A stretch of 28,729 nucleotides of DNA, taken from IMG/VR virus record IMGVR_UViG_3300042382_000033, positions 1 to 28,729 of that record; one strand, 5' to 3'. Source of the DNA: a virus. Shown in pieces: positions 738 through 25,461 of the stretch (position 1 is the first letter of the stretch; each line of letters opens with the position of its first letter). The notes beneath the pieces were generated by a model. It was not told where the DNA came from. It searched no databases and saw nothing but the letters and a program-made list of their open reading frames with translations. The position numbers were made by a program, and so were the translations under genes.

Positions 738-908
738 TACAACACTACTCTTTCCCCACCCATCAGACATAGAAATTGTCCCTGAAGTTCTTCCAAAGAG
801 AGCCCTGACTGCTGTATCATTCATATTGATAGCTGTATTACTTGTAAGACCTAACTCTATATTAACCTGTGATAATGAGATACTATTCGGAGAGACGGGT
901 AATGTCAT
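1..908 (-). CDS. Tail-tip protein with Ig/Fn3-like repeats (3' end beyond window)
   Basis: The frame opens at ATG 906-908, preceded by GAGGAG at good spacing, and stays open for 302 codons to the left edge without a stop, so the C-terminus is missing. Residues 1-54 match the short adaptor found at the start of many phage tip and fibre proteins: an S-L-S-Q segment near residue 11, a conserved V-R-A-L-F-G near residue 34, then I-S-M-S-D-x-W-G-K-S ending at residue 54. From residue 58 come three tandem 84-residue beta-rich modules with the shared core T-S-Y-D-V-T-F-N, of Fn3/Ig-like type. The start lies inside the last 26 bases of the J-like gene in another frame, so the two are translationally linked. 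The likely role is a tail-tip or receptor-contact accessory protein that attaches by its N-terminus and displays binding modules; the adaptor motif is family knowledge, the binding role is inferred. Plus-strand frames here are shadows. Confidence 0.8.
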   Translation of the reverse strand, partial: MTLPVSPNSISLSQVNIELGLTSNTAINMNDTAVRALFGRTSGTISMSDGWGKSSVVKLGTPTFTAATGGAGTVSFTWNAITSATSYDVTFNGTTTNQTSTTFARTSGVNAGLYALSVVAKATGFTSSDAGVSTTVNVTSPKLATPLYSVVAGGVNSVSFAWTAVSNATSYDVTFNGNTTTQTGLTFNIASGVAAGTYSLSVVAKAANYTNSDAATSGNIIVTNAKLSTPSFTAATGSVNQVSFTWSAVTNATSYDVTFNSVTTTQTSTTFTSVNTLTPGTYYLFVKAKAANYPDSDVGTSS

Positions 909-1200
909 TACGTAGCTCCTCTATTTGCAATTGTTGCTCTTTTATAGCTTCAATTAATAATGGTATAATCTTCTGGTAATCTACACCAAGAAATCCATCA
1001 TCTTTTTCATGAACAGCTTCCGGAATAACTTCCATTATTTCCTGAGCAATTACACCTATATCATTTCGCTTGAATAGGTCTTGATTTTGCTTAGCGTAAT
1101 AGTCATCATTCCAGGTGAAAGTATATCCATTTATTTTAGATAGTTTTTCAATGGGATTTGAAATTAATACAATATTATGTTTCAATCTTTTATCTGAACC
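883..1200 (-). other. Peptidase_S74 self-cleaving chaperone domain of the J-like protein
   Basis: Residues 1640-1744 begin G-S-D-K-R-L-K-H-N and continue with the conserved D-I-G-V-I-A-Q-E core and a G-V-D-Y-x-x-I-I-P-L-L-I-E-A-I-K-E helix ending in a coiled coil. In characterised S74 proteins (phage endosialidase and some fibres) the domain helps the upstream beta-structure fold as a trimer and then cuts itself off just before the Ser of an S-D-x-R-x-K motif, using Ser and the Lys five residues later. Both residues are present, so cleavage before Ser1641 (codon 1195-1197) is predicted, releasing about 104 residues. Confidence 0.9.
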
Positions 1201-4200
1201 ATTGTATGCCGTTATATTCGCAGTAGCAGTTATATTTCCAGTTACATATACATTCCCAGAGGCTCTGAGCGCATATGAGGGGTCGCATATATAAACTGAA
1301 GTTCGAGTAGAGCCAGGTGACATATTAAACTGACTGGCAAAGTATCCTGCGTACTGAGCGGTATCCGCTCCACTGGTGCCGTAAGAAGCATGTGAACCTA
1401 AACTAACTTGGAAAGCATTATTTCCAGCCTCTGAACTGTAAGTTACGTTAAAAGCTCTACAAAACTCATTATTTAGATAATAACCTGTTTCGCCCATACG
1501 TATTAAAGTACTGCCGTTGACGTCCGGTTTCCCATTATGACCCCAAAACATCGTTTCCATACCTACACCCGCTCTATTTACGAAATCACTCGGGTGCCTT
1601 ATCTTTGCTTGGTAAGCTATCCTAACAGGTTGTTCAGCAGACCCTGCTGGATTTGCGTATACAACTGTATAGTCGCCAATAACGCTATCTCCGGCGGAAA
1701 ATAATAAGTTATTAGTATTTGAATACGTTCTAAACTCATGACTAGTTCTATCTTCATTAATAGTTAACCGTTCTCCCGTTCCAGATGTAGATTTTAACTC
1801 TCCTGTAAATGTTGTTATGGCCTCTAGGCTGCCAACTTTAAATAAACTAAGATAAGGTACACCCCACACTGTATTTTGGTAGTCTCCATTTGGCTGATAT
1901 ATCGCATCAGTCTGCCATTGCTTCTCCCCAGTAGCTACAGTATAAGGTGTTTCTGACCAAGTTATAATATTCCAAAACAAATCGTAGGCTATTGCTGGCA
2001 ATGCGCCATCTGTAGACGCCATAGGTGTTTGAGGCTCATAACCAGTATATAGTTGTTTGTAGTATAACCTTTTTGCAGTTTTACCTGATGGACCTGGAAC
2101 TGTAGAAGGACTACCATCGATACCATCTTTCATACTGACTACAGGTGTTGTCCATCCTGTAACTGCAATATTACCTACATAGCCTGCACGCGCAGATACA
2201 ACCGCCCTTGAGGTATAAACTGGGGTAGTTCCTGCGGGTATTGCGTAACTCCATGTCGCTCCCGTCGAAGTTGGCATGGTCACCAGAGTATTCCCACTAC
2301 TAAAACTGTATAAACCTCCGGAAGGAGTAGTAGATGGCGCCCCTCTTGTATAAATGGTAATTTCCGCAATACTTGATCCTTCAATCTTAATTGGAGTATT
2401 CCATGTAAAACTACTCGCGCCTAATAGTTTATAGCCAACGGATGACCACATCGGCTCTGTGCTATCAGGCACTAGATCGACATTAGAATACCAATTAGCC
2501 GGTGCGCCTACAACAGAGGGCGCTGCTGCACTTCGTCTAAAAATAATATCTACTGAATCGCCTGTATCGCCTTTTATAGATAAGCCTTGATCTCCTTTCT
2601 CGCCTTTAATTTTAGAAGGGGTAGACCATGTACCATATGATAATACAACTCCTGTGGCACTTAAAGTATTCACTTGCTGGCTCATCCAAATTGTCGTTGT
2701 ATCAGGAATAGGCCCCCACCCTGTGGCAGTCTGCGTAGATGATGCTGGAAGCGTTGGAGCATTTGTAGCAGAACTATAAGTAAAGCGTATAGTACCACTA
2801 GTGCCATCTTTTGAGATTGCAACAGGAAATGACCATACAGCTGAATGCGGAGGTAAGCCATCACTAGTGAAGATTCTGGTTGCCATATATAATTGATCGG
2901 TACCAGCAGGCACCCCATCCGACCAACCTGTAGCAGCTGGACTGCTAAATGTACCACCTGCAGGTCTATCAACCAATGGGGTTGCACTTCGGTTGAAGCA
3001 TATCCCATTAACTTGGCCTTGCCCTACTGCACCTGGAGAACCATTCTCTCCTCTTATCTTAACAATTGATACTGTTGCTTCACCATTTGCTGTGACGGTG
3101 GTTCGCATGTATTGATCTAATGGTACACCAATTGGATGCCAGTTTGTAGAACCGTCTACACTAAACTCTAGTTTTGTATCTGATGTAGAGACCAATTCAG
3201 TAGGTGTTTTCCATACTAGCGCTTGAGGTGATTCTCCATCACTTGTAAATAAACGACTACTCATCCATACTGTCAGGTTGGTGCCATTGTCTTCCGGTAT
3301 GCCATCAGACCAGCCGGAAGGTACAGGTAGTAAGAAAGAGCCGTCTGTTGGTGTATCAGGTTTTAAAATACTACGTTTAAATATAGTACTGGTAAATGAA
3401 GTTGTTTTTAATTGAGTGAACGGAATTGTTAATGAATCGCTCATTATTGAAAATGTCGTCGCGTCTACAACTTTTACACTCGTAGCCATTGAAGCATTCG
3501 TAGTTGATACTGTAATCGAGTTGCTCGTATCTGTCTGCACAACGCCAGCTATTGTCCACTGGTGAGTCGCCGATGCGTAAGGAGTGCTAAAAGTTATTGT
3601 TGTAGGTACCAATACTCCGATTTCACTGCGTTCTATTTTAGAAACACTAGCCGTTATCATTTTTGTATTAAATGTATTTAAATTTAATACTAGATCACTT
3701 TCAACAAGATCAGAATACGTCCCGTCAGCTCTATAACCCCTAACTGCAAAAACAGTACTAATGTATGGAATAATTTGGTTAATGCTATATGTTGTCGCTT
3801 TAATGTCTGATGCGAGTAATACAAAAGTGGCCACACCCTGTGTTTCGTATCTAGCATAATATAAGTCATAACTCACTGTTAATGAATCATTTGTAGTCCA
3901 TTTTACTTCGCCCAGTGCAGTACTTTTTGGATCATAATAAGGCGTATAAACAGGCTTAGAAGGGGTAGGTACAACAGTGCTCGTTACAGGGACACTGACA
4001 GTAGGCGCTAAAAATTCAGTAATATCTGAATTTAAGACAGGCGCATATACAGCAGATACTTTACATATATTATTAATATCAATTTCAACTTGTAAAATTC
4101 TTAGCCTAGTCGGAACTGAATTAGTTATTGTTTTACTTGTAAGCGTTACAATATCTCCAGGCTCTAATAGCTTATTAGTTATAATATAACTAAAAGATAT

Positions 4201-6117
4201 TGCATAAGTGTCTCTACTTTTCTCAACAGTGTACTTAGCTAATAACGCTGCATGGTAGTAGTCAGTTATACCTGAAGCCGATATTTCATTTGAAGATAGT
4301 ATATAACCGTCTTGCGAAAGGAGTGTATTGTATTTCCCTGAGTCACTCGGCACTGCAATGAAATCGGTATAAGTTTCATCTGCACTGTTCCAAATCTGGG
4401 CACCGCTCGTAGCTTGTGATAACGTACCTGCCATGCCAAATAAAGCAGCACCCGTACATTCGACTGTTATGGAATATCTGCCTGCGGTCAAAGCCTTCAC
4501 GCTACTTGTATACAACCCATTTGAAGCGTATCCATCGACAATCATGACACTGGTTTCGAGATTCACCATCCTTACACGGTGATTGGAGTCTCCAGATGCA
4601 ATTCTCAATCTATAATCATCAGCCAACGCTGTAGGTATATAAATCTTGTAAACAAATGTAAACCCAGCGGATTCGCCAGACCATACGGCATAATTGTTTA
4701 AAAGAGTTGGCCCTACGTTTGCACCATTATTTTCCTCACCCCAGTTAGTGCGGGTGGATCGACTGTATCTAAAAGGTCCAACACCTCTATAGGGCGCTGA
4801 ATCGGTAATTTTAGGTGGCCATGATACTTTCTCTTCTACAAATTCTGCTGATTCATTTTTAAAAGTGACTGTACAATAGTTATATTTAGAAGATGACGGT
4901 GGAAAGGATTTAAGCACTTCTTGTGATAGCACTAAATCGCTATCTGTTATTGTGACACCTGTAGGATTATCTAAGAGTAGTTTATATTTACCCCCAGACC
5001 AGACTAAAGAAGCTTCCGGCATAGATAGCAAAATAGACTTTACATTTTCTGAAATAGATTTAGAAGTATCTAGTACAATATTACATTCATACTTACGTAA
5101 GGGTTCTGTAACTGACGGTGCCGCATTATAAGGAGCAACTAAAGTATTACCTAGTTGAGTAGGGTTGTAAAATTTGCCACTTCTTGCAGACATGACTTTC
5201 ATATCAGCATTTGCAATGACTTGATCACAAACAGCTGCAGTCTCTCTAAATGAATTCAAATCTAACATAGATTCTGTTATTCTCAAAGAATCGTCCAAGC
5301 TGCCACAATCTAGCAAATAATCCAATAGCACCCAAGCTGGGTTATTAGAATACACCCTAGTAGGCAAAATTGCTGTATTGCCCGGGTTCAATGTTGTTCT
5401 TATTTTTCGACCTTCGATAAGAAACTTAACCTTTGGAACGGAAGTGAACTGTGGATTCATTGCATTCAATTTAAACGCACAAGAAGCATACGCAATATTA
5501 GTAAATGCTGCTGCCTTACGTCTAGGTTGATTTGCAGTCATGACTGCGTCTGTCCCGCCATTTGTATGTATATCAATCCTAAGAGCAGACTGATTAGAAT
5601 GTTTGCTATCCCATTTACTTCTTGCGCTACCTCCTAAGTCGGGAGATGAGATGTATTTATCATCAACAAGACATTCTACAACACGGTTGATATCACCCCT
5701 TGCGATAGTATACTGTGCATATAGTAAATCTGATACTGCATCAGTTGGATATGTAGTGTCTAATTTAAGTGCCGATTGTGCAGGCACTATTAGAGATGAT
5801 GTGATTGTTTTTGTAGCATCTGTTGGATCTATAGTTACGACAGATAACGAAGATGCTGGAATGGCAGACGGACCAGCTTGAAAAGTTTGTTGACTATTAA
5901 CTGTGACACCTGTCATTGTAAATTTCTTTGTAGTGTCTGCATATACTAATGTCCCTTCGACAAGACCTCTACCATATACTAAAGGTAAGTATCCTGTTAC
6001 CATCTTAGCTTCAGGTGTTATACCAGTTGTCTTTTCAGGCGGCTCAGGCTTAGTCCATTCTTCATAGATTGCCCAAAGTATAAGACCTGTTTTAACAATA
6101 TCAGAAAATGTTATCAT
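883..6117 (-). CDS. J-like central tail-tip / host-specificity protein with C-terminal S74 chaperone
   Basis: A 1,744-residue protein. The N-terminal region (about 1-435) has a G-Y-L-P-L-V-Y-G-R-G-x-V-x-G motif near residue 42, typical of lambda gpJ-like tip attachment proteins. Residues about 440-575 look like an inserted beta-sandwich of possible carbohydrate-binding type. About 715-810 is Fn3-like. About 912-1347 holds five diverged modules with W-S-D-G-(I/V)-P, W-M-S and F-T-S-D-G motifs, interspersed with short G-x-x-G collagen-like stretches. The receptor-facing part follows. The final 105 residues are a Peptidase_S74 intramolecular chaperone with catalytic-type Ser1641 and Lys1646. The start is ATG 6115-6117 in a TAATG overlap with the gene before, with GGGGTAAG upstream as ribosome binding site. 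It is the largest tip gene and sits just after two small tip proteins, where gpJ is expected. It should close the tail tip and bind the host surface; receptor identity cannot be told. Confidence 0.85.
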   Translation of the reverse strand: MITFSDIVKTGLILWAIYEEWTKPEPPEKTTGITPEAKMVTGYLPLVYGRGLVEGTLVYADTTKKFTMTGVTVNSQQTFQAGPSAIPASSLSVVTIDPTDATKTITSSLIVPAQSALKLDTTYPTDAVSDLLYAQYTIARGDINRVVECLVDDKYISSPDLGGSARSKWDSKHSNQSALRIDIHTNGGTDAVMTANQPRRKAAAFTNIAYASCAFKLNAMNPQFTSVPKVKFLIEGRKIRTTLNPGNTAILPTRVYSNNPAWVLLDYLLDCGSLDDSLRITESMLDLNSFRETAAVCDQVIANADMKVMSARSGKFYNPTQLGNTLVAPYNAAPSVTEPLRKYECNIVLDTSKSISENVKSILLSMPEASLVWSGGKYKLLLDNPTGVTITDSDLVLSQEVLKSFPPSSSKYNYCTVTFKNESAEFVEEKVSWPPKITDSAPYRGVGPFRYSRSTRTNWGEENNGANVGPTLLNNYAVWSGESAGFTFVYKIYIPTALADDYRLRIASGDSNHRVRMVNLETSVMIVDGYASNGLYTSSVKALTAGRYSITVECTGAALFGMAGTLSQATSGAQIWNSADETYTDFIAVPSDSGKYNTLLSQDGYILSSNEISASGITDYYHAALLAKYTVEKSRDTYAISFSYIITNKLLEPGDIVTLTSKTITNSVPTRLRILQVEIDINNICKVSAVYAPVLNSDITEFLAPTVSVPVTSTVVPTPSKPVYTPYYDPKSTALGEVKWTTNDSLTVSYDLYYARYETQGVATFVLLASDIKATTYSINQIIPYISTVFAVRGYRADGTYSDLVESDLVLNLNTFNTKMITASVSKIERSEIGVLVPTTITFSTPYASATHQWTIAGVVQTDTSNSITVSTTNASMATSVKVVDATTFSIMSDSLTIPFTQLKTTSFTSTIFKRSILKPDTPTDGSFLLPVPSGWSDGIPEDNGTNLTVWMSSRLFTSDGESPQALVWKTPTELVSTSDTKLEFSVDGSTNWHPIGVPLDQYMRTTVTANGEATVSIVKIRGENGSPGAVGQGQVNGICFNRSATPLVDRPAGGTFSSPAATGWSDGVPAGTDQLYMATRIFTSDGLPPHSAVWSFPVAISKDGTSGTIRFTYSSATNAPTLPASSTQTATGWGPIPDTTTIWMSQQVNTLSATGVVLSYGTWSTPSKIKGEKGDQGLSIKGDTGDSVDIIFRRSAAAPSVVGAPANWYSNVDLVPDSTEPMWSSVGYKLLGASSFTWNTPIKIEGSSIAEITIYTRGAPSTTPSGGLYSFSSGNTLVTMPTSTGATWSYAIPAGTTPVYTSRAVVSARAGYVGNIAVTGWTTPVVSMKDGIDGSPSTVPGPSGKTAKRLYYKQLYTGYEPQTPMASTDGALPAIAYDLFWNIITWSETPYTVATGEKQWQTDAIYQPNGDYQNTVWGVPYLSLFKVGSLEAITTFTGELKSTSGTGERLTINEDRTSHEFRTYSNTNNLLFSAGDSVIGDYTVVYANPAGSAEQPVRIAYQAKIRHPSDFVNRAGVGMETMFWGHNGKPDVNGSTLIRMGETGYYLNNEFCRAFNVTYSSEAGNNAFQVSLGSHASYGTSGADTAQYAGYFASQFNMSPGSTRTSVYICDPSYALRASGNVYVTGNITATANITAYNGSDKRLKHNIVLISNPIEKLSKINGYTFTWNDDYYAKQNQDLFKRNDIGVIAQEIMEVIPEAVHEKDDGFLGVDYQKIIPLLIEAIKEQQLQIEELRNDITRLSE
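2079..3383 (-). repeat. Five diverged modules in the J-like protein
   Basis: Residues about 912-1347 contain five related blocks of roughly 55-90 residues. Copies 1 and 2 are clearest: a (F/C)-(K/N)-R-S start, G-W-S-D-G-(I/V)-P, then W-M-S-S-R-L-F-T-S-D-G or a variant, then a W-x-x-P strand. Copies 3 to 5 keep the W-x-x-P strand but have drifted elsewhere. Linkers contain G-E-K-G-D-Q-G and G-P-S-G collagen-like turns. The pattern suggests an extended stalk built by module duplication. It is a protein-level repeat with little DNA identity. Confidence 0.6.
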
Positions 6118-6614
6118 TATTTCTTACCCCATTGAAGCATTAGTTTAGAAACATCATCTTGCGATCTTTCAAAGCAAGTGTCGCCTACTGCAGGTGGATA
6201 GTCCTTGCTAATGTGCCATCCCGCAACTGAATCAAGGACATACATAGGACTTGCGCATGTGAGTTTAATTAAGGATTCTCCAATAGCATCTGTTTTCAAA
6301 TAGGAATCAATTCCTGAGATAACACCTTTATATGCAATTACAATTGTTACATCACTATCAGTGACATATACATTTTTAACAGTTACCGGCATTCCATTTG
6401 AGAAACTGCTTAAAGAAGAGTTAGCTAACTCTATCCCGTATGTAACCTGTTTTATATCTGAAACAACTATAGGTGATACAGAAACTAGTCGAGAATCAGC
6501 AAGGTAAACAACACCCTCTACCGTCTCATTTTTATAACTAGAAGTCGTATTTATACTTCCTATGGTTGCAATAACGAACATATCTTTTAATGTTCCTGTC
6601 GCAAAATTTCTCAT
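6117..6614 (-). CDS. Putative tail-tip protein upstream of J-like protein
   Basis: A 165-residue, mostly beta-strand protein. It starts at ATG 6612-6614 in an ATGA overlap with the previous gene and ends in a TAATG overlap with the J-like gene, so its translation is tightly coupled to both. No catalytic motif is visible. The C-terminal half has a strand pattern ending in L-T-C-A-S-P-M-Y, then a G-D-T-C-F segment and a final L-x-W-G-K-K, loosely like the DUF2163/DUF1833 and gpL-type proteins that occupy this slot between tape measure and hub in many siphoviruses. Position supports a baseplate or tip role; the exact family is not established from sequence alone. Confidence 0.6.
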   Translation of the reverse strand: MRNFATGTLKDMFVIATIGSINTTSSYKNETVEGVVYLADSRLVSVSPIVVSDIKQVTYGIELANSSLSSFSNGMPVTVKNVYVTDSDVTIVIAYKGVISGIDSYLKTDAIGESLIKLTCASPMYVLDSVAGWHISKDYPPAVGDTCFERSQDDVSKLMLQWGKK

Positions 6615-7417
6615 AACGCCTCTATCAATTTAACTTGGCCTGTGGTCATCATAATACCATCGCTGTACACCATGCCTGAGATAACATCTGTATCGTACTT
6701 GGCATTCATTTCTACTTCTGTATATTTTACAGCCGTTGTAGTAGTTATTGGCAATCGTAACTCTGGAAATATTACCAAAGAAGTCGTATGGCTAACCACC
6801 ATATAAACCTTTGGATCAATACCGAAAGTTATAAAGAGACCTACTGGCAATTTTTTATTAGTATTAGAAACAATTGGTAGACTAGTTACACCAGCAAGCG
6901 CTGCGCCAACTGTCAATTCCGTTTCTGAGTCAATAAAATAAGACTTAGGTTCACTATGTCCAGGATTCCCAGGAATTAAAGTTGTAACAGTTAATGTCTT
7001 TGCTACTGCATCTGTAGATGTTATTATTCCAACACCAATTATACTTTTATTAAGGACACTTACATAATTAAAATTAGATGGGGTTACTACTGTAAACACA
7101 TTACCATTTTCTTTATTTAGTGTTGCTGTTATTTCTAATGGTTTTTCTATTTGTAATTGTGCCCCATAATTCTGAGGCATTTTAATTTTAAAACTTTCGG
7201 ATGACCCTTTAGTTACTAGATGTGCAAATAAATCGTTAGCAGTACCAACGAGGGGTTCAAGATTTGCATCTATCTCCCAACGTTGGACATTACGTTTTAC
7301 CGAAACTCTAGATAATGAAAGGGTATCCGAACTAAATACTGGTTGATTACTTTTAACTGTTAATGGTGCAATAAATTTAGCAATCAATGCAGTACCGTTC
7401 AGGATACCGTATGACAT
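6611..7417 (-). CDS. Putative distal tail protein (Dit-like)
   Basis: A 268-residue protein directly after the tape measure gene. An upstream ATG at 7441 would add eight residues and overlap the tape measure gene; ATG 7415-7417 is preferred because GAGG sits about seven bases before it and it follows the tape measure stop by one base. The N-terminal 80 residues (beta strands around K-R-N-V-Q-R-W-E-I-D-A-N-L-E-P) resemble proteins that follow the tape measure gene in other siphoviruses, where the slot usually holds the distal tail or lambda gpM/gpL-type protein that caps the tube and holds the tip. No enzyme motif is seen. The Dit-like call rests mainly on position and beta-rich composition. 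Confidence 0.5.
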   Translation of the reverse strand: MSYGILNGTALIAKFIAPLTVKSNQPVFSSDTLSLSRVSVKRNVQRWEIDANLEPLVGTANDLFAHLVTKGSSESFKIKMPQNYGAQLQIEKPLEITATLNKENGNVFTVVTPSNFNYVSVLNKSIIGVGIITSTDAVAKTLTVTTLIPGNPGHSEPKSYFIDSETELTVGAALAGVTSLPIVSNTNKKLPVGLFITFGIDPKVYMVVSHTTSLVIFPELRLPITTTTAVKYTEVEMNAKYDTDVISGMVYSDGIMMTTGQVKLIEAL

Positions 7418-7418
7418 A

Positions 7419-10400
7419 TTAACCTCTATAATTACGCTCACGATTGTACTGATTCACACCAGCCGCGATTTGCGGTAGCATTTGTGAAATCTCAGCACGT
7501 GTTTGGCGAGAAATATCGCCTGTTATATTCATATTAATAACACTATTATTAGTAATAGTATTTGTCGTACTATTAGCTTTTGATGCAGTTGGTACGGCCA
7601 TAATAGGAGAAGCTGCAGATGAAATAGTTGCACCTGAATTAATAGCTTCAAGTAATTGTCTATTTCTTGCAGTCGATGCTGCATTAATTACAAACTCACC
7701 GTTAGATAACATTGTAGGAATAGAATCAGAAGTTCCTGTTCCCGGCCCTTTAACTAAACCGCCTGTAGCCATGCCCATAACTGAGCTGAATAACCATCCA
7801 GTTAACAAACTTGTTACTGTCTGTTGAGCAGCTGGAGTAACAATAGATGCGATGGTTCCAACAGGGTCATTGGTAAATGCTGAGAATATTGCCTCAACCA
7901 TTGGAGTGATATCTGTCATTTGGTTATCACTAAATCCAAAATCATTTTTCCATCCAGCATCCCAGTTAGATGATAACCCCTGTCCTTGCGAATCCTTAGC
8001 AAGAGTAATTAGTGGATTTTCATCTGCTTCCCAATCTTTTAATAACTTACCAGAACCTATAGACAACATTGGAACTTTAGTAATAGGATCATTTCCAAAA
8101 TTAAATAACGAAGGTGTTACTGGTTTAGAAATAGCTAATGGTTTGTAACCTTTGAAAGTTTCATAATCATCATGTTGTTCTGCTGTTAAAATTTCAGGCT
8201 TATCAGATAATCCTACCCAGCTTAACATACGATCCCAAATACCGAATTCAGGATTAGGGTATGTAGATTGGTCTAATACTTCTACGCCTGATAGCATTGG
8301 TGCTATCATATCCTTGCCCCAGTCGCTTACTAACTTGCCATTTAAGGATTTTGCAAGACTTGAAAAATCAATATTCTCTAATAACGCACTTGTTGTAGTA
8401 CTATCTAGTACATTATCTGGCGCTAAATCATCAATGATCTTATTTGATACCACAGGGTCTGAAAATACTTTTGGATAAAATTTTGATAATACATCTTTAG
8501 ATGGAGAAGTTAAGAAGTTCAATACAGGCGGAACATCTGCATTAGCGCCTGCATTTGGAATGATCCAATTCAAAGCTTTGTCAAACATCGAAGGAGGTGC
8601 TAATTTATTAAAATCTTGACCATTTTGTTGTAATACCCATTCAGCACCAAGTCTCTGAGCTTCTGTCATAGGCTTCCCAGATCTAACATACTGCATAAGA
8701 TTATTTAATTGGCTTTGAGCCATCTTTGCGTCAAAATCTGATAAACCAATTTTAGAATCATTTGGAAAATATCCAGTATTTAAAGGCTGGTTAGTAAGAT
8801 TCTTTAGAGTAAACTGCTTCCCAATTGAACTACTAAAATCGCCGGCTAGCTCATCTACGCCAAAAGGAAAACTGTTAACAGGAATATTAGGCAATGCTGC
8901 CATTACATCCGGAATACTGTTGACAGCGATAGATTGAGCATACCCATCTGCAGTTAAACTTTTATAATAGTCTTGCATTGTAATTGCAACATCAACACCT
9001 GACTTATAAATCTTACTTGCAAGATCTGCTATTAGTTGACTGCCATCTGTACCAAACTTTTTAATACCAGCAGGAGTTAAATTCTTAGTGATTGTATCCA
9101 TTATACTGGTATTTGGCTTATTAGTACCAAATTTTGATAAATCAATTTTGACAGCTTTTGAGTAATCTACTAAATCTGATGTTTTAGGTTGCATCCAATC
9201 ACTGACTTTAGATTTTCCAGTAGCTACATTTGAAATCAATTTAGCTGTTAAACGGTTGGTGGTGTCTTCTGATACCTTTATTTTTGGTAATTCCCACTTG
9301 CCTGCTTTATTCAACTCTAACATAGGCTTATCTGTAGGAATTCTCTCTGTTACGAGATCACCTGCAGCACTAGTAAGGCCTAAGACAGTCTCACGCATCT
9401 TTGTACCATTTGCTACAGCTTCTTCAGTGTAATTGTACATTCCACTGTTTTTCTCTAATGCCCAACTACCTGTACCTAGTTGGCCGTCTTTAAGCAAACT
9501 GGCCATAACATTAGAAGGAATTTGGAACCCATTTAAGCCTACAGCACTTTTAGTAGATCCCGCAACAACTTTACTTAGAATATTAGAATCGACTAATCCT
9601 TGGTGAATTGCTTTGATATCATCATCTGAATATGGAGATCCATCTGCTTTCAAAGGTAACTCAAAAGCTTTTTCTGTAGCTTCTAATATTTTTTGAACTT
9701 GAGCGTTAGGCTTAGGTTGTACTGCTGTGCCTAAATAATTATTAGAAGCGTCAGGATGGTATGTATTGATTAAATCTAAAGCCTTTTGTCCGAAATAATC
9801 TTCCCAATAGTTTATAGAAGAATGACCAGATACACTTGAAGTTTTTGCAAGTTCTTTTTCATAATGAGTTGAACCTTTGGTGTTTTGCCAGAAAACTGCT
9901 GCATCTGCTAACGGATTTTCACTTTTTGCTAATAATTCAGAATATTGCTTATTTTGTAATCCTATTTTAGCTAATGCAGTGGCATTATTCATACCAGCTG
10001 GCCATACATATCCATCAATGCTGTCATTCAAATTGAATAATGATGATGCACCTGTTCCTGCAAAAATGCCTAATGTACCTAAATTTGGTTTAAACTTTTT
10101 AAGCGTATTTTGGGATTCTTCATTATACGCACTTATCACAGGAAAGGAAGCTTCTCTGACAGCATCCATTTGTGCAACTGTTGTGTTATCAAAGAATTGT
10201 GTATTCCCTAAATAGCCTGAATTTTCAATTAACTTATTTACTTCTGATTGAGTTCTCCAAGGTCCTAAAGAACCTTTGGCAGGTTCAAAAGCTTTAGTTT
10301 TAGGATTTTGATTGAATACACGCAGTAAACCTTTACCTGTTTGCTTATCAGCAATAGAATCAAATCGTCTAAGGTTTAAATAGTTATGCGCTCTAATTGC

Positions 10401-13400
10401 AGCCATATCTTCTACTGACATAGAAGGATCATTAGGCAACAGAATACCTGTACCAAACCAATTACTATCATCATTTAAGAGATTAGGAACTTGTCTAGCG
10501 CCATTATCACTTAATATGAACTTAGTAGTCATATCAGTAGGTTTTATATCCGAGTATCCGATAGCTTCGCCTTGCTTTCCAAAAGTATACCTTAACTGCT
10601 CCATAGTATACTGAGATGTGCCAGCTATAGGCGTTTCAGAAATATCAGGAGTCCAATCAGACATTTCTCCAGTATTATCCCAAGAGTATTTCCCTAGCGC
10701 TGTCCTAACTAATTGGCCTGCACCACTAATGCCCTTCATCATTAATTTATTGAAAGCAGCTATATTATAACTCTTACCATTATAAGCAACAGAAGAATTT
10801 GAAGGCAATCCTGATGTAAATGCAGAACCTAATGAATCCATTATAGGCGCATATTCAGATTTCCAGTAATGTCCTGTTGGATTTCCAGCAGCATCATAGG
10901 TCTTTAGTTTACCAATTGCATCAAAGAAACCTTTGTTACTAGTCGTAGAATATTTTCCAGTTTCAATACCTTTCGCATAATCACCTAGATTAACACCTTC
11001 TGGCATTCCTTTCCCAAAAGTACCAGCTCTAATTTGATTCAGTACATCAGCATACTCAGCAGTTTGCTTAGCAGGAATAATATACTCACCATTCGAAATT
11101 CTAATAACATTAGAATCAGAGGTACCTGTCCCTGAGCCTTGGAATATACCACCACCTATTTTTGCATCAGCGTTAGGCGTACCTGTTACACCACCTGTTT
11201 TAAAGATACTTGAAATAAATTTACTAAAATCTAATTTATCTAAGCTTTTAAACCCAGCTGCAACCCAATCCCACACAGCGCCACCGACAACTTTAGCTTG
11301 GTTCACCCAACTACTAGGTTCGAAAGCTGGCATCTCAAAGTCTCTAAACCACTGGGTTAGGCTATCGCCTACTGTAGTGCCCATGTCGACAACACCACCC
11401 CATGTGAATGTGGCTAAATCTTTAATTTTACTTCCTACCGTTGCCGAAAGATCTGTAGCTGTTGACCACAACCAATTACCTTTTGTGGTGACAAAACTTG
11501 TAAGAGCTGTCCCAATATCCACAGCATTTGTCCAAACCCAATTAGCACCTTTGGCTAAGAATGCTTTAATATTCGCGCCAACATCTATTGCCTTTGCCCA
11601 TGCCCAGTTTGCAGACTTATCAATAAACGCAGTAATACCCGCACCAAGGTCTGTTGCTGTTGTCCATGTCCAATTTGCAGCTTTGCTAAGATAAGTTTTT
11701 AAGCTTGTTCCAATGTCTGCAGTACCGTTCCAGATTATTTTACTTGTATCTGAGATGACCGCAGCAGTGCTGCTGACAACCTGCTTACCTACATCCAAAG
11801 TCCCAGTTATAAAGCTACCGGCCTTTGTTGTAAACCATGAACCAAGACTGCTGGAAATATCTGCAATACCTGACCATGTTATATTAGCCGCAGTGCCTAG
11901 CCAGCTTGTAACACTTTTACTTATATCTACAGTACTAGTCCATGCCCATTTTGCAATAGTTGGAACAGCCTTACTAACGCTATCACCTATATCTACTGCT
12001 GTTGACCATAACCAATTTCCTGCAGTTTTAAGATATGTACCTACACTTACAGAAATATCTGCACCTGTATTCCAAACCCAATTACCTGCTTTCGATAAAT
12101 AAGTTTTGAGACTTTCCCCTATCTCTGCAGCTCCAGACCAAACGATATTAGATGCAGTGCCTAGCCATGTTTTTAAATTGGCGCTAATATCAACAATTCC
12201 TGACCATGCAATTTTCCCAGTTTCAGCTAACGTTGAACCGACTGTATTTACAACTTGTGAACCGACATCTAAAGTACCAGTAATAAAACTACCGGCCTTT
12301 GTTGTAAACCACGCACTAAGGCTTGTAGAAATATCAGCAAGACCTGACCATGTAATATTGGCAGCAGTTCCTAACCAGTCGGTGACACTTTTACTTACAT
12401 CTACAGCTTTTGTCCATGTCCAATTACCTGCAGTACCTATCCAAGTACCAATGCTTGAACTAACATCTGCAATACCTGACCATGTTATATTTGCTGTCTC
12501 TTTTAACCATGCTGTAAGACTTGAGCTGATATCTACAATACCTGACCATGCGACTTTTCCAGTCTCAGCTAGTGTTGCTCCTGTATCAGTTAACACTTGC
12601 CCAGCATTTGTAAAGAGAGTTGATGCATTAGTACTGATCCAGCTCCCTAGTTTTGTTCCAATATCTACGGTGCCTGTCCAAAACTTGCTACTTGTTGTGT
12701 CTATCCAGTCACCGATTTTTGTACCTACTGCTACTGTCCCTGTCCAAAAGTCAGAAGCTTTTGTGGTAATCCAATCTCCAGCTTTCGTACCTAAAGCTAC
12801 AGTACCTCCCCAAAAGTTATTGGCACTTGTACCTATCCAATCCCCAACTTTTGTACCTAATGCTACAGTACCTGTCCAGAATTTACTAGTGGTTGTACCT
12901 ATCCAATCTCCAGCTTTCGTACCTAAATCTATAGAGCCTTTCCAAAAGTTATTTGCGGCTGTTTCTATCCAAGTTTTTGCGCTGTCAGCCAAATCAATAG
13001 CACTTGTCCACGCCCATGTGATTCCTTTACCAATATCGGCACCAAGATTTACAGTACCTTTCCAAAGCGTTGCAGCGTTTGTAGTGACCCAAGTACCAAT
13101 ACTGGCGCTAATATCTACAGCAGTATTCCATGCCCATTTAGCATTATCTGTAAAGAACCCGCCAACCTTAGCGCCAACATCTACAATACCGGTCCATGCC
13201 CATTTAGTGGTGTCTGTAAAGAAATTCCCAACCTTCTTACCGACATCTATAATACCATCCCATGCCCATTTAGTGGTGTCTGTAAAGAAATTCCCAACCT
13301 TTTTGCCAACATCTACAATACCGGTCCATACCCATTTAGTGGTGTCTGTAAAGAAATCCCCAACCTTCTTACCAACATCGATAACACCGTCCCATACTAA

Positions 13401-16400
13401 TTTTGCATTTTTCGAAATAGAGTCTCCAAGTGCAGCACCAACATCAATAATGCCACTCCATGCCCATTTAGTGGTGTCTAAAAAGAAATCTCCAACCTTC
13501 TTACCGACATCTATAATGCCACTCCATGCCCACTTTCCAGTATCCGCAAAGAATGTACCGACCTTTTTACCGACATCTACAATACCATCCCATGCCCATT
13601 TAGTGGTATCTGAGAAGAAATCTCCAACCTTAGAGCCGACATCTACAAGATTAGTCCATGCCCACTTTCTAGCGTCTGCAAAGAATGTACCAACTTTCGA
13701 TCCAACATCAATTAAGCTATTCCATGCCCATTTAGCACTGTCTGTAAAGAATGCACCGACTTTAGTACTTACGTCAATTAAACCATTCCATGCCCACTTT
13801 CCTGCGTTTGCAAAGAATGCACCGACTTTAGTACTTACGTCAACAAGACCGCTCCATGCCCATTTAGTGGTATCTGAGAAGAAATCTTCAACCTTAGAAC
13901 CGACATCAACGATACCATTCCAAGCCCACTTTGCATTCTTCGAAATGAAATCTCCAATTGCAGTACTAACATCAACGATGCCATTCCATGCCCATTTAGC
14001 ACTGTCCGAAAAGAATGTACCGACTTTAGAGCCAACATCAATAAGACCGTTCCATGCCCATTTCCCGGTATCTGAAAAGAATTTAAGAACTTGCTTACCG
14101 ACATCAACACCAACACCAGTTAAAGATGTAACAGGGGTACTACCGCCTGCGGCTGCAGCTAACTTATCCCAAAGACTTGACCCTTTAGCTGCTGAATCAG
14201 ATAAATCAGTTGCTGACTTATTTAATTTAAATGCAGAAGTATCTAGAATTTCGGTATCAATAGTTACATTGGTTTGAGTAGGTTTTTCTAAGACAGGGAT
14301 ATTAGAGAATAAAGGACTTCTTGTTTCTGCATTAGCAATCTTATTTACCATACCACCTAATGCAAACTTAGGAAGTTTATCATTATTAATAGCATTAATC
14401 AAATTACCATATTTAGCAGTTGATTTAGCATTTATAACAAATTCACCATTGGATAATTTAGCCATTATCGAATCAGATGTACCAGTTCCCGGGCCTACTA
14501 TCGGACCGCCCTCTGCAAAGCCAAAGAAATTACCAACATCATTTTTAAAGAAACTGCCGACACTCTTAGAGAAATTACTAGTTGCAGCAGAAGCAGTAGT
14601 AACTCCTGGAATAGAATTAATACCCTTATCAAACATCTTAAAGATGCCTTCACCAAGGCCTGATGCCATGTTTTCAACAGCACCGCCTTTACCAAAGCCT
14701 AATGAATTAGTTACACCAGTAGAAAAAGAGTTAATAGTAGAGTCGATTAAATTTTGTTTGAGTTTAGAAGCAAAGGTTTGGAATGCATTTTGTCCACTAT
14801 CTTTTTCGCCACGTAACAACCCTTTAAATGCGTCTGTAAAGCCAGTAGTTAATGTGCTAGAAAAGGCCTTTCCAGCGTCTCTTGCTGCTCTAATACTAGC
14901 CGCTGCAACTTCTGACTTGTCCCCCATATCCTTGATATCATCGCCAAGACTAAGAATTTTACCTGCTGTATCAACAGTTGATTTACCTGCTTTTGCGTCA
15001 ACAGCCATTTGATATTCTAAATCAGCTTGTTGATGGACTAATATGCCTGTTTTAACCTTATCTTCTTCTGTCATAAGATCAATATTTTCAGCGCTTAATC
15101 CGCTATATTCTCTAAGGAATGCTGTAATATTTCCTGTAGAAGCTTTACGGAATGCATCCATTTCTTTTAAGGTAGTAGGCATTGTGTTTGCAGCCAGACC
15201 TTTATTAGTACCTTCGACACCTGCAGATGCATTTAGTCTATCTTGGAGAAACTGCTCAGTAGGTTTACCAGCTTTAATTGCAGCATCTATATCAGCTTTT
15301 AATTGATTAATTTTACCGGCAACAGTTAATGCATAATTCTTAAGCTCAGTATTCATACCTAAGAATGCGTCTTCAGTAAAGCCAGCTTCAGTTATTAAAG
15401 TCTTTTGTGTTTCACGACCTAATGCGCCACCTGCTTTAACTAAATCAGCATTAGCAGTGTTTAATGTTTCTTGATTATTAGCCGCTATCTTATATGTTTC
15501 AATCCATAATTGAAACGCAGAAGCCATTTCATCTTTTACTGTATTAGCTTTTAATGCAACAGTATTTAATGTTCCATCAACTTTAGTTACTGGGGCAGAT
15601 GTATCAGCAACAGGAGCGCCCTTAAGATACCCATACACATCCCTAAATCTGGAAATTTGATTTTGGGTCTCTGTATTATTATAGCTATTGCCAAAGCCTA
15701 CATTATAACCGCCTGCAGTCATTGCAAGATCTTCGTTATTTCTTTTCAATCCTGACTTATAGTATTTAGCACCTGCAAATATATTTTCACGAGCATCTGT
15801 ATAGTCATTAAGCTTATGCCATCTAGGCACTAATTGCATAACACCAATAGCACCTTTATCACTTACAGCATCTTTCTTTAATCTGCTTTCAACAATTCCT
15901 AATGCTTTTAAAGCTATCCAATCAACATTGTATTTAGTTGCCGCTTCTTTGAAGATTGCATCATATGTTGAATTATTTAGTTCTTTGGCACTGAATCCTT
16001 CTGGGACTGCCATGCTTGACGCTTTTGGCATCGGTGCCAGCTCTGACTGCGGAATAGCTGTTTGTGGGGACTCTGCGGTACCGCCTGTGGCCGGCTTTCC
16101 TGCAATTAGGTCAGTGACAGCCCCACGAAATTCTGAGGCACCTGACTTGATATCTGCGCCAGCTGTGAGAAGCATTTCAGAGAAACTTTGAGGTGGTGTC
16201 AATTTGCCAGCAATGTTTAAATTAGCAAACTCTTTACCAAATCGCGATTCCATTCCAGATAGGATATCCTTAATCGGCATACCACCTTTAAGTTTATCTG
16301 TTGCAAAATTATACATTTCACCTGACATAGAGTCCATCTTTTGCAATGCTTCAGCAAAATAAATTGTATCTGCACGATTCTTAAGCTCTACCTTTTGTGT

Positions 16401-19400
16401 AGTTGGTAATGCAGCATATTGAGATGCATTGATATTTAAATCAGGTAATCCCGATTTGATTTTCTCAAATGAAGAAGTAAACCCGTCTGTTATAGTCTCC
16501 TTAAGGCGCGTCTTCATATCTACGAAGAAACCTAAGAATGACGTATGAGATTTTAGATTTTCAAAGCTAGTTGCAAGTGCTTCAGTTGAAGAAGTCATAT
16601 CAGACTCTTTCATAGCTTCTTCTAATGCAGTTTTATATTGTGTAGCAGTACCTGATAATTGTGCCCATAATTTAGAGGGCAACCCTGCCATCAACGCTGT
16701 AGACATATTAGAGCCAAAAACTTCATTTACTGTAGAAGTTTTCGAAGTAAGATCTGCAAAACCTGCTTTGATCTCTTCTCTGCGTTTCTCAGCTTTAGCT
16801 AATTCTATGCTAAGTGTTTTAATTTTACCAGTATCATTACCTGCTAGTTTAATATCAGAGTTTAGATTAAAGATTTGCTTATCAACACTATCAATTTCTT
16901 TCAACAAGTCTACACTGACTGCCCTAAACTTACGAGGAGCATCTAGCCCAAATTCTGGGAATTGAATCTCTCTGTGCGCTATCGCAGCTTCTGCTCGAGC
17001 TAATTCATCTTCATAATTATTTATTAATCCTTGTGGATCTCCACCTGCAATTTTATATTTACCATCTCTAAGATCTTGAATAGCATTCTTAAGTCTAGCA
17101 ATGTTAGTAGCCGCCTTATCAGCGTCGGCTCTTCCAAAATCTTTAAACACTTGTTGATAGTTAATGCCTGATGTTTCAATATCTTTTAAACCTTGCAAAG
17201 CTTTGGCAAATGGATCAGTATCTTGAAATCTTTTAGTATCGGCAGCAAGTTGAACCATCCATAAATCTATATTCTCTAAATCGTATTTTCGCTCTTCAAG
17301 ACGTTTATTATAATTATCAGCTGCCGTTGCATTTTCTCTTTCAACCTTAATCCATTCAGCAGTATCTTTTAAAAATGGATTAGGTTTATCTTCAGGTTTG
17401 GTTAAAGTAGCTTCTATATTTGCCCTAGCTGCTACTACTTTTAATGCAAACCTATTCAACGATTCTGCAGTAACCTTATCATCAATAGGGATAATAAGAG
17501 GCTCTTTAAGTGCAGGTGGTAAAAATGAACTCAAATCTCTTGTAGTAGCCTTAGGTAAAAGAGAAAATTTATTAGGCGCCCCTAACATATTTAATGCAGG
17601 GATATCATATATTGAAGGCGTTTTGATAAATGCAGGGTTTACAGATTTAAATGGAACTTGCTCAGGAGCATTTACTTCTTTTATATTTAAATCACGAGGA
17701 GGACTTTGGACACCTCTTTGCACATTAGTCCTTAAATCATTACCCACAAGCGCACGACTAATTCTTTCAGGTGATGTAGTCATCATCTGCCCGTAAGTAG
17801 CCTGCTTGATATCAAGAGTTGCTTTTTCATTTACAAAACGTAATGCTTCTACACCTCTAATTCCAAGCTTCTCTATATTTTTGGCTAAAGCTACTGGACC
17901 AATTGTTGCAGTATCAGCTGCCATTTCTTGTGCAAGTTTAGCTTCTCTTTCAACAGCTCTTAATGTAGATAAAGTTGCGTTTCGATCTTTAGTACTGAAC
18001 GTATGATCGAGATGGTCTTTTAATCTTTTAGCTTCTAACCCTAATTGTTGCAATCTTGAAATTGCAGCATTATTTTCAGATTCAGGTAATATATCATTAG
18101 CGGTTATACTTACATTAGCATCTTTTAAATTACCTACTAATGAACTTACAAGATTAGTGTATATTTGTTCATCTGCAAGCGCTTTTGCAATTTCTTTTGC
18201 ACGTGATACGAATTTGCCTAAGGCATCTACTGATTTTTCAAAATAAGAGATATCAACTTTTAAATCTGGACTGCCTAAAAGATTCTGCATAGACATAGAA
18301 CTCAGATCTTCATTTATCTTTGTTGTATATTTATATACATCATTACTTGCAACTGCAAGACTCATTTTGAAATTTTCATCAAGACCGGGCAATTCACCTA
18401 ATTTAACAGCTTCATCCGCCATTGCCTTAAGTTCAAAAATACGTGCTTTTACTGCATCTTGCTCAGGTGTCAAGTACGCAGTACTCATAGTCATTTCACG
18501 TGCAGAAATTGTTCCGCTTGCTTTTGAACCTTTCCGCGTAGGTAGAGATAATGAGTCTGCGCCACCAAACACTTCATCAAGACGAGTTGACCGCTCCACT
18601 GTAAAATTCTTAAAAAGATCTACAGTTTTCTGCATATTGAACCTAGATGCTCGCATTGCTTCTGCAGCTTTCTTATTTAATACTTCAGCTGCTTTCTCTG
18701 CATCTTTTTGTAAAGCTGATTTATCACCAGAACCGCCTTTATCCTCAGCATTCTTTAAAGCTTCCATAGAAGATTTAAATGTTTCTTGAGCCTTGGTGTA
18801 TCTCTCAAATATCTGAGGATCTTCAATATTAGACTCATCAATTAGCCTTGCATCATACTTAAGAGAAATTCCATATTGAGTAGCAGTGTCAGCTTCACTT
18901 TTTAGTAATCCAGTCTTTTTATCTTTTGCTGCTGAATGGATCCCAAGTATCTTTTTAACTTTTTCGTATATATCATCCAAGGCTCCCATTAATGTGCCGT
19001 TACTACCCATTAAATACATTGCAAGAATGCCGCCTGTAAGCGCAAATATATTAAAGCCTAAAAATAATCTTGGAATAAATTTTGCAATAGTGATAAAGAA
19101 TGAAGTAATTTTAGGGATAACCATTGAACTGAACATCATGGCTAATCCAGCGCCAATACCTGCACCTGTTTCTCCACCAATCTTATTTCCTACATAAGCA
19201 CCTGCCGCCCCTGCTGCAACGAGAGTGGTAGCGGTTGCTCCAGCACCTGCAATACCTTTAGTTAATGCGCCCTTAGCACCTAGCAATGCTCTATTAGGAT
19301 TTGCCATATAATATTGCATGTAGCTTGCTTGGTTCATTGGCAATCCGCCATAACTTCCCATGCGGTTAAAATCTTTGCGTCTATCTGCTGGAGTCATTCC

Positions 19401-22400
19401 TGCATATTGCGCTTCAAGATCTTTTTGCAATAATTGCTTCTTTATGGCAGCATTACTAGTATATAAACTTCTATCAACATTAGCAGGAGTCAATCCTTGT
19501 GAAATCTTTGTATCTAATACGTTATTAGCAAGTTCTTTTGCTGCATTAAATCTACTACGTTGTACACCAACAACACCTGCTGCAATTGCTGGAATTAATC
19601 CACCAAAGAGTGTAGCTGCTACGTCCACGTGAGAACCACCCAGTTCGAAAGAACCCATAAAGGCTTTTCTTCCGCGTTCACCGGCCTTCTTAAACTCGTC
19701 AGTACTTTCTAAGAATGGTATACGAAATAAAACTGCAGCGCCAACACTGACTATGGCTGCCCGCCAAGTAGATATAAATTTCAGAGTATTAACCATCAGG
19801 GCTAAAGCTTTGGTCATCAATGTTATTCTATTTGTTAGACCAGTAAGGCCTCCCATTGCGCCTGCTACTTCTGCTAACCATAGGGATACAAACTTACCCC
19901 CCATTGTTTCTCTTAAAATAGCTGTTGCACGTGCCATTGCATATAATTCAGCTGTATATAGTTTAAGTCTTGGAACAAATTTGTCTGGACTAGTTCTGGC
20001 AAGTATTTCACCTTTTTCTTTTACAGTATCAAATACTTTTGTTAAATTAGGAAACTTTTGGAATCCTTGCTGCAATACAGTTCCTGCTCCGCTTGTAATA
20101 GGCGCTGAGCTTTCTTGTAAGAATCTAGCAAACCCTCTAACTGCTGTTTGGCCTTTAGTTTCTGGACCTTTACTTGGATTAGGCTCAAAAGCGCTTCTGA
20201 ACCTATCAAAACGAGATGTTCGTTCTTCTTTATAAGTTCTTTTTCTATTTCTAAGATCTGCAGCAACTGCTTCTGCCATAGTTCTATCGGACATGCCTTG
20301 TTTTAATTCAGAGCTATATTTACTGATATTAGCGCCTAAGTTCTTGACTATACTACTACCACCGATCTTACTTGCTAGCTTATCTAGAATAGGAGATGCT
20401 TGACGCATCGTATCCCACAACGCACTTACATAGAGACCTGTATAAGACTTCATGTTTAAGCCAACAGACTTTAATCCTGATGTAGCTGCAATACCTTGAA
20501 ATGCAAGTAATTGATTACCTAAAGCTGCTAATGCTGCTCTAAATAATGTAATAGGGCTTAATGCTAATTGCAAATTAATCAGAGGTTTATATAGAGCTGT
20601 TAACGCCCCAGCTAGTAGTGCAATACCGCCAATAGCTACTTGGCTAGGTGTGAGACTGTCCCACATGCCTTTTAAACTTGTTGGTAAGATATCTGAAATA
20701 TTTTGAATAAGATTTTTAAGACCATTAGTAATAGATAGTGATAATCTGTCATATCCGTATCCTACTTCATCTGCAATCTTTTGTAATACAGTATGGCCTG
20801 TACCACGACCTGTCATTTCTCTGAAACTAGGAACAGGAATTCTATGATACGGTTTTACAGTTTCAGCACGAGGTTTGTTTATTAAGTCTGTAGGTGGCCC
20901 TTGTGGAGCTTCTTGAATACCTCTGTAAAATGTCTCACCATTCAATGAAGGTGTCATTGTATCAGCGCTTGACATATTAGAAAATGTTAATGCACCAAGT
21001 GCTGCTACAGCTAACATAATCCATTTTACAATAGGATGCCCAAACGCGGATGCAAGAAGTGGTGATACCGCTGCAAATCTTGTTGTTGCATAGTTATAGG
21101 CACTTTCAATAGAATTATAAAAAGCTCCTAATGAAGTTGCGGGTATTCCTGTTGGTCCAAAAAGTAATCTAGAAAAGAATGTTCCCGTACCAGTGCCAGT
21201 AAATGCAGAAGCAAAACGTTCTCTCATACCTGCAAATAAATTAGCAAGTATAGAAGGATCTCTTACCATGCTGCCTAGCATTCCAAACATTCTTACAAGA
21301 TTGCCTCTTATAGTACCCTCTGGAAATAGCATAGATAATTCGCGCATTACCGGATATATAATTTTAGATCTAATTGCATCAATACCGCTTGGCCCCATTA
21401 ACGCTAATGCAATTAAACCGCCTTGCATATATGCATGCCCTAAAGGACTATCATAGAATACTTGATCAAACATCCCTAATTGATCAGCAACCAATGCGAC
21501 CATTGCACTAGAACTTACTACATTGCCTGAACTAAAGAATGAGGATGACGCACGACTCATTGCAGTTTGTGGTCTAGACTGGTATCCAACTCCAGGAGGT
21601 AATGGTGGCCCCATTCCTACGTGTGCAGGGTTAGTCATTAAACGTGTCATATTGTGGCCAGCAACAGCAGTATTTGCCATTGTTCCACCAAAGAATGAAC
21701 CAATAGAGCCTGTTACTTTGAATATTCTAGAAATTTGCTTTTCAAATATTCCTAATGTAGATAACATTTTAAGAGCGGGTCCGCCAAATAGTAATGCACC
21801 AATCAAGCCACCAGCTGTACTAAACTGAAATAGATCCAGTATCCCATATACCATGCTCGCAACAGTACCTACAATTGGGATACTCTTCAAGAAGCCTTCA
21901 ACAGCACCGCCAATGAATCCTAACAGATTAGATATAATTGCAGGCAAGTCCGCTAATATTCCTAATAAAACTGTTCCAGCTACTTTGCCTGCCACTTTGC
22001 CAGCTTCTACAGAGAAGCTAACACCAAATCTTACATCAGCAAATACGTTAGCAAATGCTAGCCCTGCAGCAATAGCGGCTCTTAAGAATAAGCCACCAAG
22101 CATAGAAGTAATTCTATTTTCTGGCAGTAATAGCGATACAAAAGCTAATCCAAAAACATTAGCAAAAGCTGTTAATGAATGTTTTAATTCTTCTGGCAAC
22201 CCATCAAATAAGTTTTTAGCAAAGTCTTTAGCTATTTCAATAGATTTTCTAAAATTGCCTGTTGAGATGCTGATTACAAAATCACTACGTAAGGTATCTG
22301 CGACTATGCTTCTAATTTTTCTAAAGCTACTTACAACACCGTCACCAATACTTGACAATACATTTGCAGCCATTGGTGAAATAGTTTTAACAGCTTCCAA

Positions 22401-25106: not shown

Positions 25107-25119
25107 TTGTTTTCTCCAT

Positions 25120-25163
25120 AAAAAACCCCTCCACTAATACCATAAAGGTAATAATAAAGGGGT
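25120..25163 (-). terminator. Intrinsic terminator between gp10-like gene and tape measure gene
   Basis: On the minus strand a 6-bp ACCCCT/AGGGGT outer stem (arms 25158-25163 and 25125-25130) encloses a second, imperfect stem around TACC/GGTA and is followed at once by six T. It starts five bases after the gp10-like stop codon. The T run ends about 13 bases before the tape measure start codon, just before its GGAG ribosome binding site. There is no room for a promoter after it, so it probably reduces tape measure transcription rather than stopping it. Confidence 0.8.
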
Positions 25164-25167
25164 GTTA

Positions 25168-25461
25168 TTAATTAGGTGTTACGATAACACCATTCGCGTT
25201 AACGTTTCCATTAGCTAACAAAGTTCTCTCAATAAAATGAGAAGGTGCTTGTTTACTTGAGCCAGCATTCAACTCCTCTATATATTCAACTTCATTAACT
25301 ATTTTTCCATCTTGAAGTTTCCAACCATCACGTGCTCTTCCCGTGTCTACTGGAGTTGCTTCTTTTAACGCTTCTATTAATTTTAAAGATTCACGCTCTA
25401 AGATAGTTTTAGATCTTTTTGCTAGTTCGGCTCTAAAATCAAGATTTATTTTTACAGTCAT
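25168..25461 (-). CDS. HK97 gp10-like tail completion protein
   Basis: A 97-residue protein whose start overlaps the stop of the T-frame in ATGA, so it is translationally coupled to it. After an N-terminal helix (about 10-34) come A-T-P-V-D-T-G-R-A-R-x-G-W (35-47), I-V-N-E-V-E-Y-I-E-E-L-N-A-G-S-S-K-Q-A-P (about 53-74) and a final F-I-E-R helix. This is the recognisable pattern of the HK97 gp10-like tail component family, which contributes to neck assembly or tail completion. The family is usually encoded between head closure and tail terminator genes; here it lies between the chaperone and tape measure genes. Family assignment is strong; the role in this position is inferred. Confidence 0.8.
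   Translation of the reverse strand: MTVKINLDFRAELAKRSKTILERESLKLIEALKEATPVDTGRARDGWKLQDGKIVNEVEYIEELNAGSSKQAPSHFIERTLLANGNVNANGVIVTPN

Follow-up and report, generated by a model that had tools for sequence, protein, structure and literature searches.

A tryptophan-rich repeat array in a giant tape measure protein

The IMG/VR virus record IMGVR_UViG_3300042382_000033, a 28,729-base fragment that we analyzed in its entirety (the window), raises the question of what a 906-residue run of Trp-rich repeats does within a tape measure protein (TMP), and how it came to be there. The TMP gene (7419–25106, on the minus strand, as are the TMP parts, the cassette and the two flanking tail genes given below) is a single open reading frame with Pfam TMP_3 and PHROG matches that encodes 5,895 residues, and residues 3682–4587 (11346–14063) form an array of 41 units with a 22-residue repeat. 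On balance we think that the array probably serves this giant TMP as a modular helical spacer, packed in the tail tube and lengthening the tail, within a swappable cassette. What appears to be new here is a relative, G002, that is near-identical over 14.6 kb and has different repeats at the array's place.

The array was proposed in an earlier note made from the sequence alone; its 906 residues and coordinates are borne out exactly, and so is its estimate of about 41 units. A regular-expression scan by itself gives 36 hits whose spacing is 22 residues, apart from one 18, two 26 and gaps of 44 and 66 residues that hide diverged units. With these gaps filled at 22 there are 41 in-register units; 37 of the steps between them are 22 residues long, one is 18 and two are 26, so that the description 'almost no change of period' is close to correct. 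The reading frame runs through the array without an internal stop. A profile derived from the units finds 42 of them at ≥5 bits, including a degenerate first unit that lacks Trp (residues 3660–3681; 14064–14129; 15.7 bits). Identity at a lag of 22 rises to 0.55 in 400-residue windows and to 0.69–0.71 in shorter ones, and array-free segments of the TMP do not exceed about 0.12 at any of the lags tested. At the DNA level, Tandem Repeats Finder reports a 66/132/264-bp array in the N-terminal part only (rows within 12695–14109), the remaining array DNA being too diverged for its threshold. Over the 13.5–22.8 kb fetched, four other IMG/VR records (up to 66 kb long) match the window DNA at 100% identity, and a one-off assembly error is therefore unlikely.

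Of the 41 copies of the unit, 38 have Trp at position 4, 23 have it at position 2 and 33 have Phe, Trp or Tyr at position 17, and positions 6, 11 and 15 are mostly Gly; the array accounts for 76 of the 115 Trp residues in the TMP. Two sub-families can be recognized among the in-register units, A (15 units, consensus KWAWxGIxDVGxKVGxFFxDxx; 13074–14063) and B (FWxGTVxLGTKxGDWI units, residues 4052–4161; 12624–12953). The K-W-A-W…F-F form given for all units in the earlier note describes the first ~15, and later units have diverged from it (e.g. FWTGTVALGTKVGDWI and NITWSGIADISSSLGSWF). A PHROG search with the array alone yields five matches with E no higher than 0.1, the best to a family of unknown function (2.9e-8) and one to the tape measure family phrog_5493 (1.3e-6); no solved-structure relative is found by sequence at E up to 1.

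Helical periodicity of the repeat unit

Hydrophobicity along the array is most strongly coherent at 98.2 degrees per residue, which corresponds to the sixth harmonic of 22; the power there is 97.7, and that of the second-strongest component 53.5. Polar residues cluster on one face of the unit (R 0.675; none of 2000 column permutations as high). Because of these two features we favor, with moderate confidence, an amphipathic helix as the best reading of the array. The hydrophobic moment at 98 degrees, which the earlier note named as a check, is present on the Eisenberg scale (0.357 against 0.168, sd 0.042), where none of 200 column permutations is as high. Proline is found once in the 906 array residues, 723 of which form an uninterrupted stretch free of Pro, against 177 times in the 4989 residues elsewhere in the TMP; the spacings that depart from 22 do so by −4 or +4 residues, about one helical turn in each case; and the hydrophobic positions 3, 7, 10, 14 and 18 match the 4-3-4 spacing of hendecads.

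Several observations weigh against a simple helix. The expected next core position, 21, is mostly Thr or Ala; the near-invariant W4, like position 8 (Val/Ile), falls outside the core, and the hydrophobic side is therefore wide. On the Wimley-White scale 20 of 200 permutations give as high a moment, which is therefore not significant; Chou-Fasman means slightly favor strand (0.989 helix, 1.056 strand), and the array is 11.6% Gly and 13.5% Thr. There is also a second hydrophobicity peak at 180 degrees, and AlphaFold2 (AF2) models of eight units built from a six-row alignment show strands in each unit, with a mean predicted local distance difference test (pLDDT) score of 52 (31–52 across five models). 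Together with the Gly/Thr/Val-rich composition, the strands and the 180-degree component suggest that the units might build a solenoid or another beta-rich repeat, which would form a short stout rod of, by our estimate, about 0.5 nm per unit and add little tail length. We consider this improbable: the pLDDT values are low, the 98-degree component is stronger than the 180-degree one, and three homologous units in a relative, L215, are modeled with short helices nearby (pLDDT 31), such units being called helix or coil at pLDDT about 30. AF2 reportedly builds false beta-solenoids on perfect repeats (PMC11795689), and its strands are therefore weak counter-evidence to the amphipathic helix. With pLDDT values of 52 and 31, neither AF2 model is a usable guide to the fold.

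The aromatic residues do not line up as had been suggested. A single aromatic face is ruled out by column permutation (R 0.211; 1657 of 2000 permutations as high); most aromatics fall at 98, 131, 196, 229 and 295 degrees, with W2, W4 and F/W17 on both flanks of the wide hydrophobic side. The proposed period of 11 is likewise contradicted, since the hydrophobic autocorrelation at lag 11 is −0.12 and both published 11-residue patterns (described below) have zero matches, and a hidden 11-residue sub-unit is thereby ruled out. A membrane-spanning array, also raised in the earlier note, is not favored, as its best 19-residue Kyte-Doolittle mean is 0.94, below the threshold of 1.6, a value that is exceeded in nine TMP segments outside the array.

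Exchange of the repeat cassette between nearly identical phages

The TMP contains three copies of a motif, GPGTGTSDSIP.MLSNGEFVINA, and one to three copies are present in those relatives' TMPs that reach the C-terminus. Copy 1 (anchor 1; GPGTGTSDSI..LSNGEFVINA, with GTGTSDS at residue 3540; 14352–14519) precedes the array, and copies 2 (anchor 2; residue 4659; 10992–11159) and 3 (residue 5789; 7602–7772) follow it; the outer limits of all three were set by eye.

Comparison with G002 (78.7 kb) reveals 99.979% identity across window positions 14158–28729, with three mismatches in a 14.6-kb stretch whose end lies just N-terminal of the array, and 99.3% identity (54 mismatches) across positions 1–7766. 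Between these identity blocks is a cassette (7767–14157) containing the array, anchor 2 and a segment 2 that is replaced in G002, where only diverged blocks match (e.g. 83% at 10653–11140). The G002 TMP, which is gapped and was scored as two sequenced halves, has no units at ≥5 bits; at the array's place it carries other repeats, including 105-bp (35-residue) units whose copies are 93–95% matched and number 3.0 at one contig end and 4.3 at the other, both ends falling inside that array. These contig ends (L094 1–318 and L095 4286–4741) overlap by 58 bp inside the 35-residue repeat array of the TMP, and because the terminal overlap falls in the repeat, a 'circular, complete' call for G002 would be unsafe. 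Of the 54 mismatches in positions 1–7766, 43 cluster at 7214–7755, beside the cassette, as expected at the edge of a recombination tract; chimerism of the G002 assembly was considered as an alternative.

The array thus appears to sit in an exchangeable cassette between anchor motifs, and the TMP reads as a mosaic with putative junctions at or near them. Identity blocks with G002, G003, L215, L216, L217 and L218 all begin at window position 11140 (residue 4656), at anchor 2, but these six records are not independent, four being near-identical to each other, and the block edge could also come from protein constraint on the motif. A large survey of mosaicism in phage proteins reports that genuine, recently emerged mosaicism in tape measure proteins could not be confirmed (PMC10684548), and the exchange between the window and G002 looks like such a case. 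Among the papers listed in searches of the open-access literature, none is an earlier report of the array or of the cassette swap.

What else has changed between the two phages can be judged from G001, the 66.3-kb record of the window's virus. G001 is incomplete, and it and G002 are the sole pair of long contigs compared. Megablast aligns them in blocks of 95.7%, 99.87% and 99.76% identity, leaving two long stretches without comparable match, a 4.5-kb stretch of G001 (5820–10324) and the 6.4-kb TMP cassette, in which a single 493-column block matches (83.6%). The 4.5-kb stretch lies in the genes for a 1,091-residue protein with CBM_5_12 modules, which suggest that these genes are fibre-like, and a 474-residue neighbour without a Pfam match. 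We note that in this second replaced block (L102:5820–10324 in G001, 26188–31443 in G002) the protein has three CBM_5_12 stretches, and that a heme oxygenase gene (PF01126; L102:10318–10854 in G001) adjoins these variable genes.

The coincidence of the two exchanges bears on a different explanation, namely that the cassette is an ejection-specificity module. Being near the C-terminus it would leave the tail early and contact an inner-membrane or periplasmic partner of the host, or evade an entry-blocking defence, and would be swapped on a change of host. Under this explanation the giant TMPs of this phage group would have a C-terminal cassette, bounded by duplicated anchors, that changes hands together with the receptor-binding fibres in genomes that otherwise remain almost the same; the array would then be a single allele of a system for ejection specificity, with tail length as a by-product. 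We regard this as possible but unlikely. It draws on the identity of the only two long unmatched stretches, fibre-like genes and TMP cassette, in contigs whose matched blocks are 95.7–99.9% identical, on the location of the TMP C-terminus at the tail tip in phage DT57C (PMC10713586), and on the reported linkage of siphovirus TMP variants to ManYZ dependence and sensitivity to the SNIPE nuclease (PMC13190303). Against it, the TMP regions linked to SNIPE in that report are residues 100–150 and 300–400 and not C-terminal, the array has no transmembrane-like segment, a second fibre-like protein (window 883–6117) is not exchanged, a receptor-binding role for the first block is deduced from its CBM_5_12 modules, and the pattern comes from one pair of contigs, one of them incomplete. 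The window and G002 constitute a natural experiment, in which the tail tube and N-terminal TMP are 99.98% identical and the repeat cassette is different, and the pair could reveal what TMP repeats determine in nature, tail length or ejection specificity.

Variation among relatives and age of the array

The number of units, which the earlier note had proposed to compare, differs between close relatives. Counted by the profile at ≥5 bits in 14 scored rows, there are 42 units in the window, six in G005, three in G006, three in each of L215, L217 and L218 (which are near-identical to each other), one in G007, and none in either half of G002 or in G003C, G015, G019, G029 and G011. The distance from anchor 1 to anchor 2 varies with the phage, from 1119 residues in the window to 558 in G005, 532 in G006 and 528 in L215. 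At 0.15 nm for each residue, the window's excess over G005 and L215 would amount to about 84–89 nm of tail. Despite its short linker, L215 is 93.8% identical in DNA to segment 2 of the window (residues 4656–5309). In a broader set of 33 TMP rows, which includes one record split into two halves, another represented by its C-terminal part only and some truncated sequences, period 22 is the strongest repeat in no other TMP, and a 66-residue unit profile scores above zero only in G005 and G006, the window having been searched outside the array only.

C-terminal changes between otherwise similar TMPs are also seen for G029 and G030 and for G019 and G022, and G024 and G025 are the same. At about residue 3565 of the G029 TMP (L201), just before its last anchor, there is a different, 16-residue Gly/Met/Phe repeat (GGEGGGGIMSMFQGLV). 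In L119/G019 the major capsid protein is 99% identical to that of the window phage and the TMP N-terminus only 36% identical, and because of this disparity the TMP seems to have been exchanged as a whole. The linker of a relative used as a query finds four more records besides its own. Scans with six 8-residue peptide patterns, which detect close relatives only, gave five candidate stretches in prokaryote genome contigs, none of which was confirmed, and nothing beyond the window's virus in viral contigs.

Within sub-family A the uncorrected synonymous and non-synonymous differences are 0.62 and 0.23; when all 41 units are compared pairwise the ratio is 0.72, synonymous sites being close to saturated. 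Because synonymous sites in sub-family A are far more diverged than non-synonymous ones, the unit sequence has been conserved, and the array is no recent expansion. This speaks against a neutral expansion of the repeats, tolerated but without any selected function, which we regard as very improbable; relatives with zero, three or six units would suit such an expansion, as would G002, where the closely matched 105-bp copies indicate a young expansion of another unit.

The array as a probable tail spacer

How the helical spacer that we prefer might work can be outlined as follows. Each 22-residue unit would make six turns of an amphipathic helix at 3.67 residues per turn, with positions 3-7-10-14-18 as its core, and parallel copies of the helix would pack as a straight bundle within the tail tube. 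With 0.15 nm of tail for every residue, the array of 906 would account for about 136 nm, and a tail built on the full 5,895-residue TMP would measure about 884 nm (~0.88 µm). Growth would have been upward from an element of about three units that is still present in relatives; purifying selection would keep the unit sequence, and recombination between the conserved anchor motifs would swap the cassette among nearly identical phages. The scheme also assumes, as a further point against it, that the TMP part beyond anchor 1 lies within the tube.

Elements of this scheme have counterparts in other phages. In DT57C, three parallel alpha-helical strands of the TMP form a coiled coil, of which the two ends are resolved (PMC10713586). 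In TP901-1, deletions of W/F repeats give tails from 109.5 down to 65 nm compared with 118 nm, the shortest with all 29 repeats (347 residues) removed (PMC5099701); effects on infectivity are reported to vary, many being minor and some severe. By analogy, a role in tail length for repeats of this general kind, as had been proposed, is supported by the TP901-1 deletions. For phiCbK, a TMP of 1,964 residues predicts 295 nm, and the reported measurement is 300 nm (PMC3556154).

Tail module and other genes

Assignment of the protein as a TMP, as given in the earlier note, is well founded: the TMP_3 domain occupies residues 132–320 (24147–24713; E 1.7e-47), many PHROG tape measure families match, an SLT transglycosylase domain is found at residues 3052–3148 (15663–15953; E 5.1e-14), and the gene lies between those for the major tail tube protein (26395–27030, PHROG major tail protein, within the 99.98% identical stretch) and the distal tail protein (6611–7441, PHROG). 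With a tail terminator, these fit a siphophage-type tail module, and a large neighbour protein of the TMP has tail-fibre profile matches at its C-terminus. A Pfam search with the C-terminal 2,214 TMP residues, including the array, gives two weak DUF matches below the cut-off (E 0.049 and 0.17).

Elsewhere in G001, a 1,775-residue protein (L102:14114–19441) contains a Phage_Mu_F head domain and a C-terminal match to DNA-dependent RNA polymerase (PF00940, residues 1607–1716), and may be a fusion of a head protein with a single-subunit RNA polymerase that is packaged in the virion. A PhoH gene is located at L104:11150–11818.

Comparison with known tape measure repeats and phages

The nearest named records by major capsid protein are DSS3_VP1 (Naomviridae; 40% identity) and EBPR siphovirus 1 (48%), and DSS3_VP1 also matches the N-terminus of the window TMP (43% over residues 132–329). 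Unlike the window TMP, their annotated TMPs are 1,655 and 2,141 residues long, respectively, as calculated from coordinates.

The array itself resembles proteins of other phages. Among the 51 records matched by tblastn with the array (E down to 7e-10), 49 are Streptococcus phages and the other two Betalipothrixvirus, with 22–27% identity in the 40 matches listed. In the TMP of Streptococcus phage MissE1 the 22-residue profile scores 30.7 bits over 66 residues, against a maximum of −21.5 in 200 shuffles of the repeat region, and the two share a 22-residue register, W-x-G-[IV]-V-[DN]-[VI]…G-x-[FW]-F (AWDGIVNIFSGIGEWF versus KWAWDGIVDVGKKVGTFF). MissE1 differs in mixing spacings of 22, 18 and 40 over roughly 300 residues, and a pattern of seven consecutive [FW] at 22 has 24 matches in the window TMP and none in MissE1, so pure 22 spacing is not common to both. 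These similarities point to the window array and the Streptococcus phage repeats being of a common type, and we do not infer common descent.

Tandem W/F units in a TMP are also what Belcaid et al. (2011) describe, as 11-residue (11-11-18) repeats (PMC3271669), and what is seen in TP901-1/p2. The two Belcaid patterns ([FW] every 11 or 11-11-18, seven positions) each have no matches in the whole window TMP and one match in the MissE1 control. The total length of the array has a precedent in two Clostridium prophage stretches in the same report, each 825 residues by coordinates (PMC3271669). The length of the whole protein is closest in kind to that of Thermus phage P74-26, with a TMP that is also over 5,000 residues (5,006 by record coordinates) and a tail described as the longest known, at nearly 1 µm; compared by TMP length alone, the window TMP exceeds that of this longest-tailed phage.

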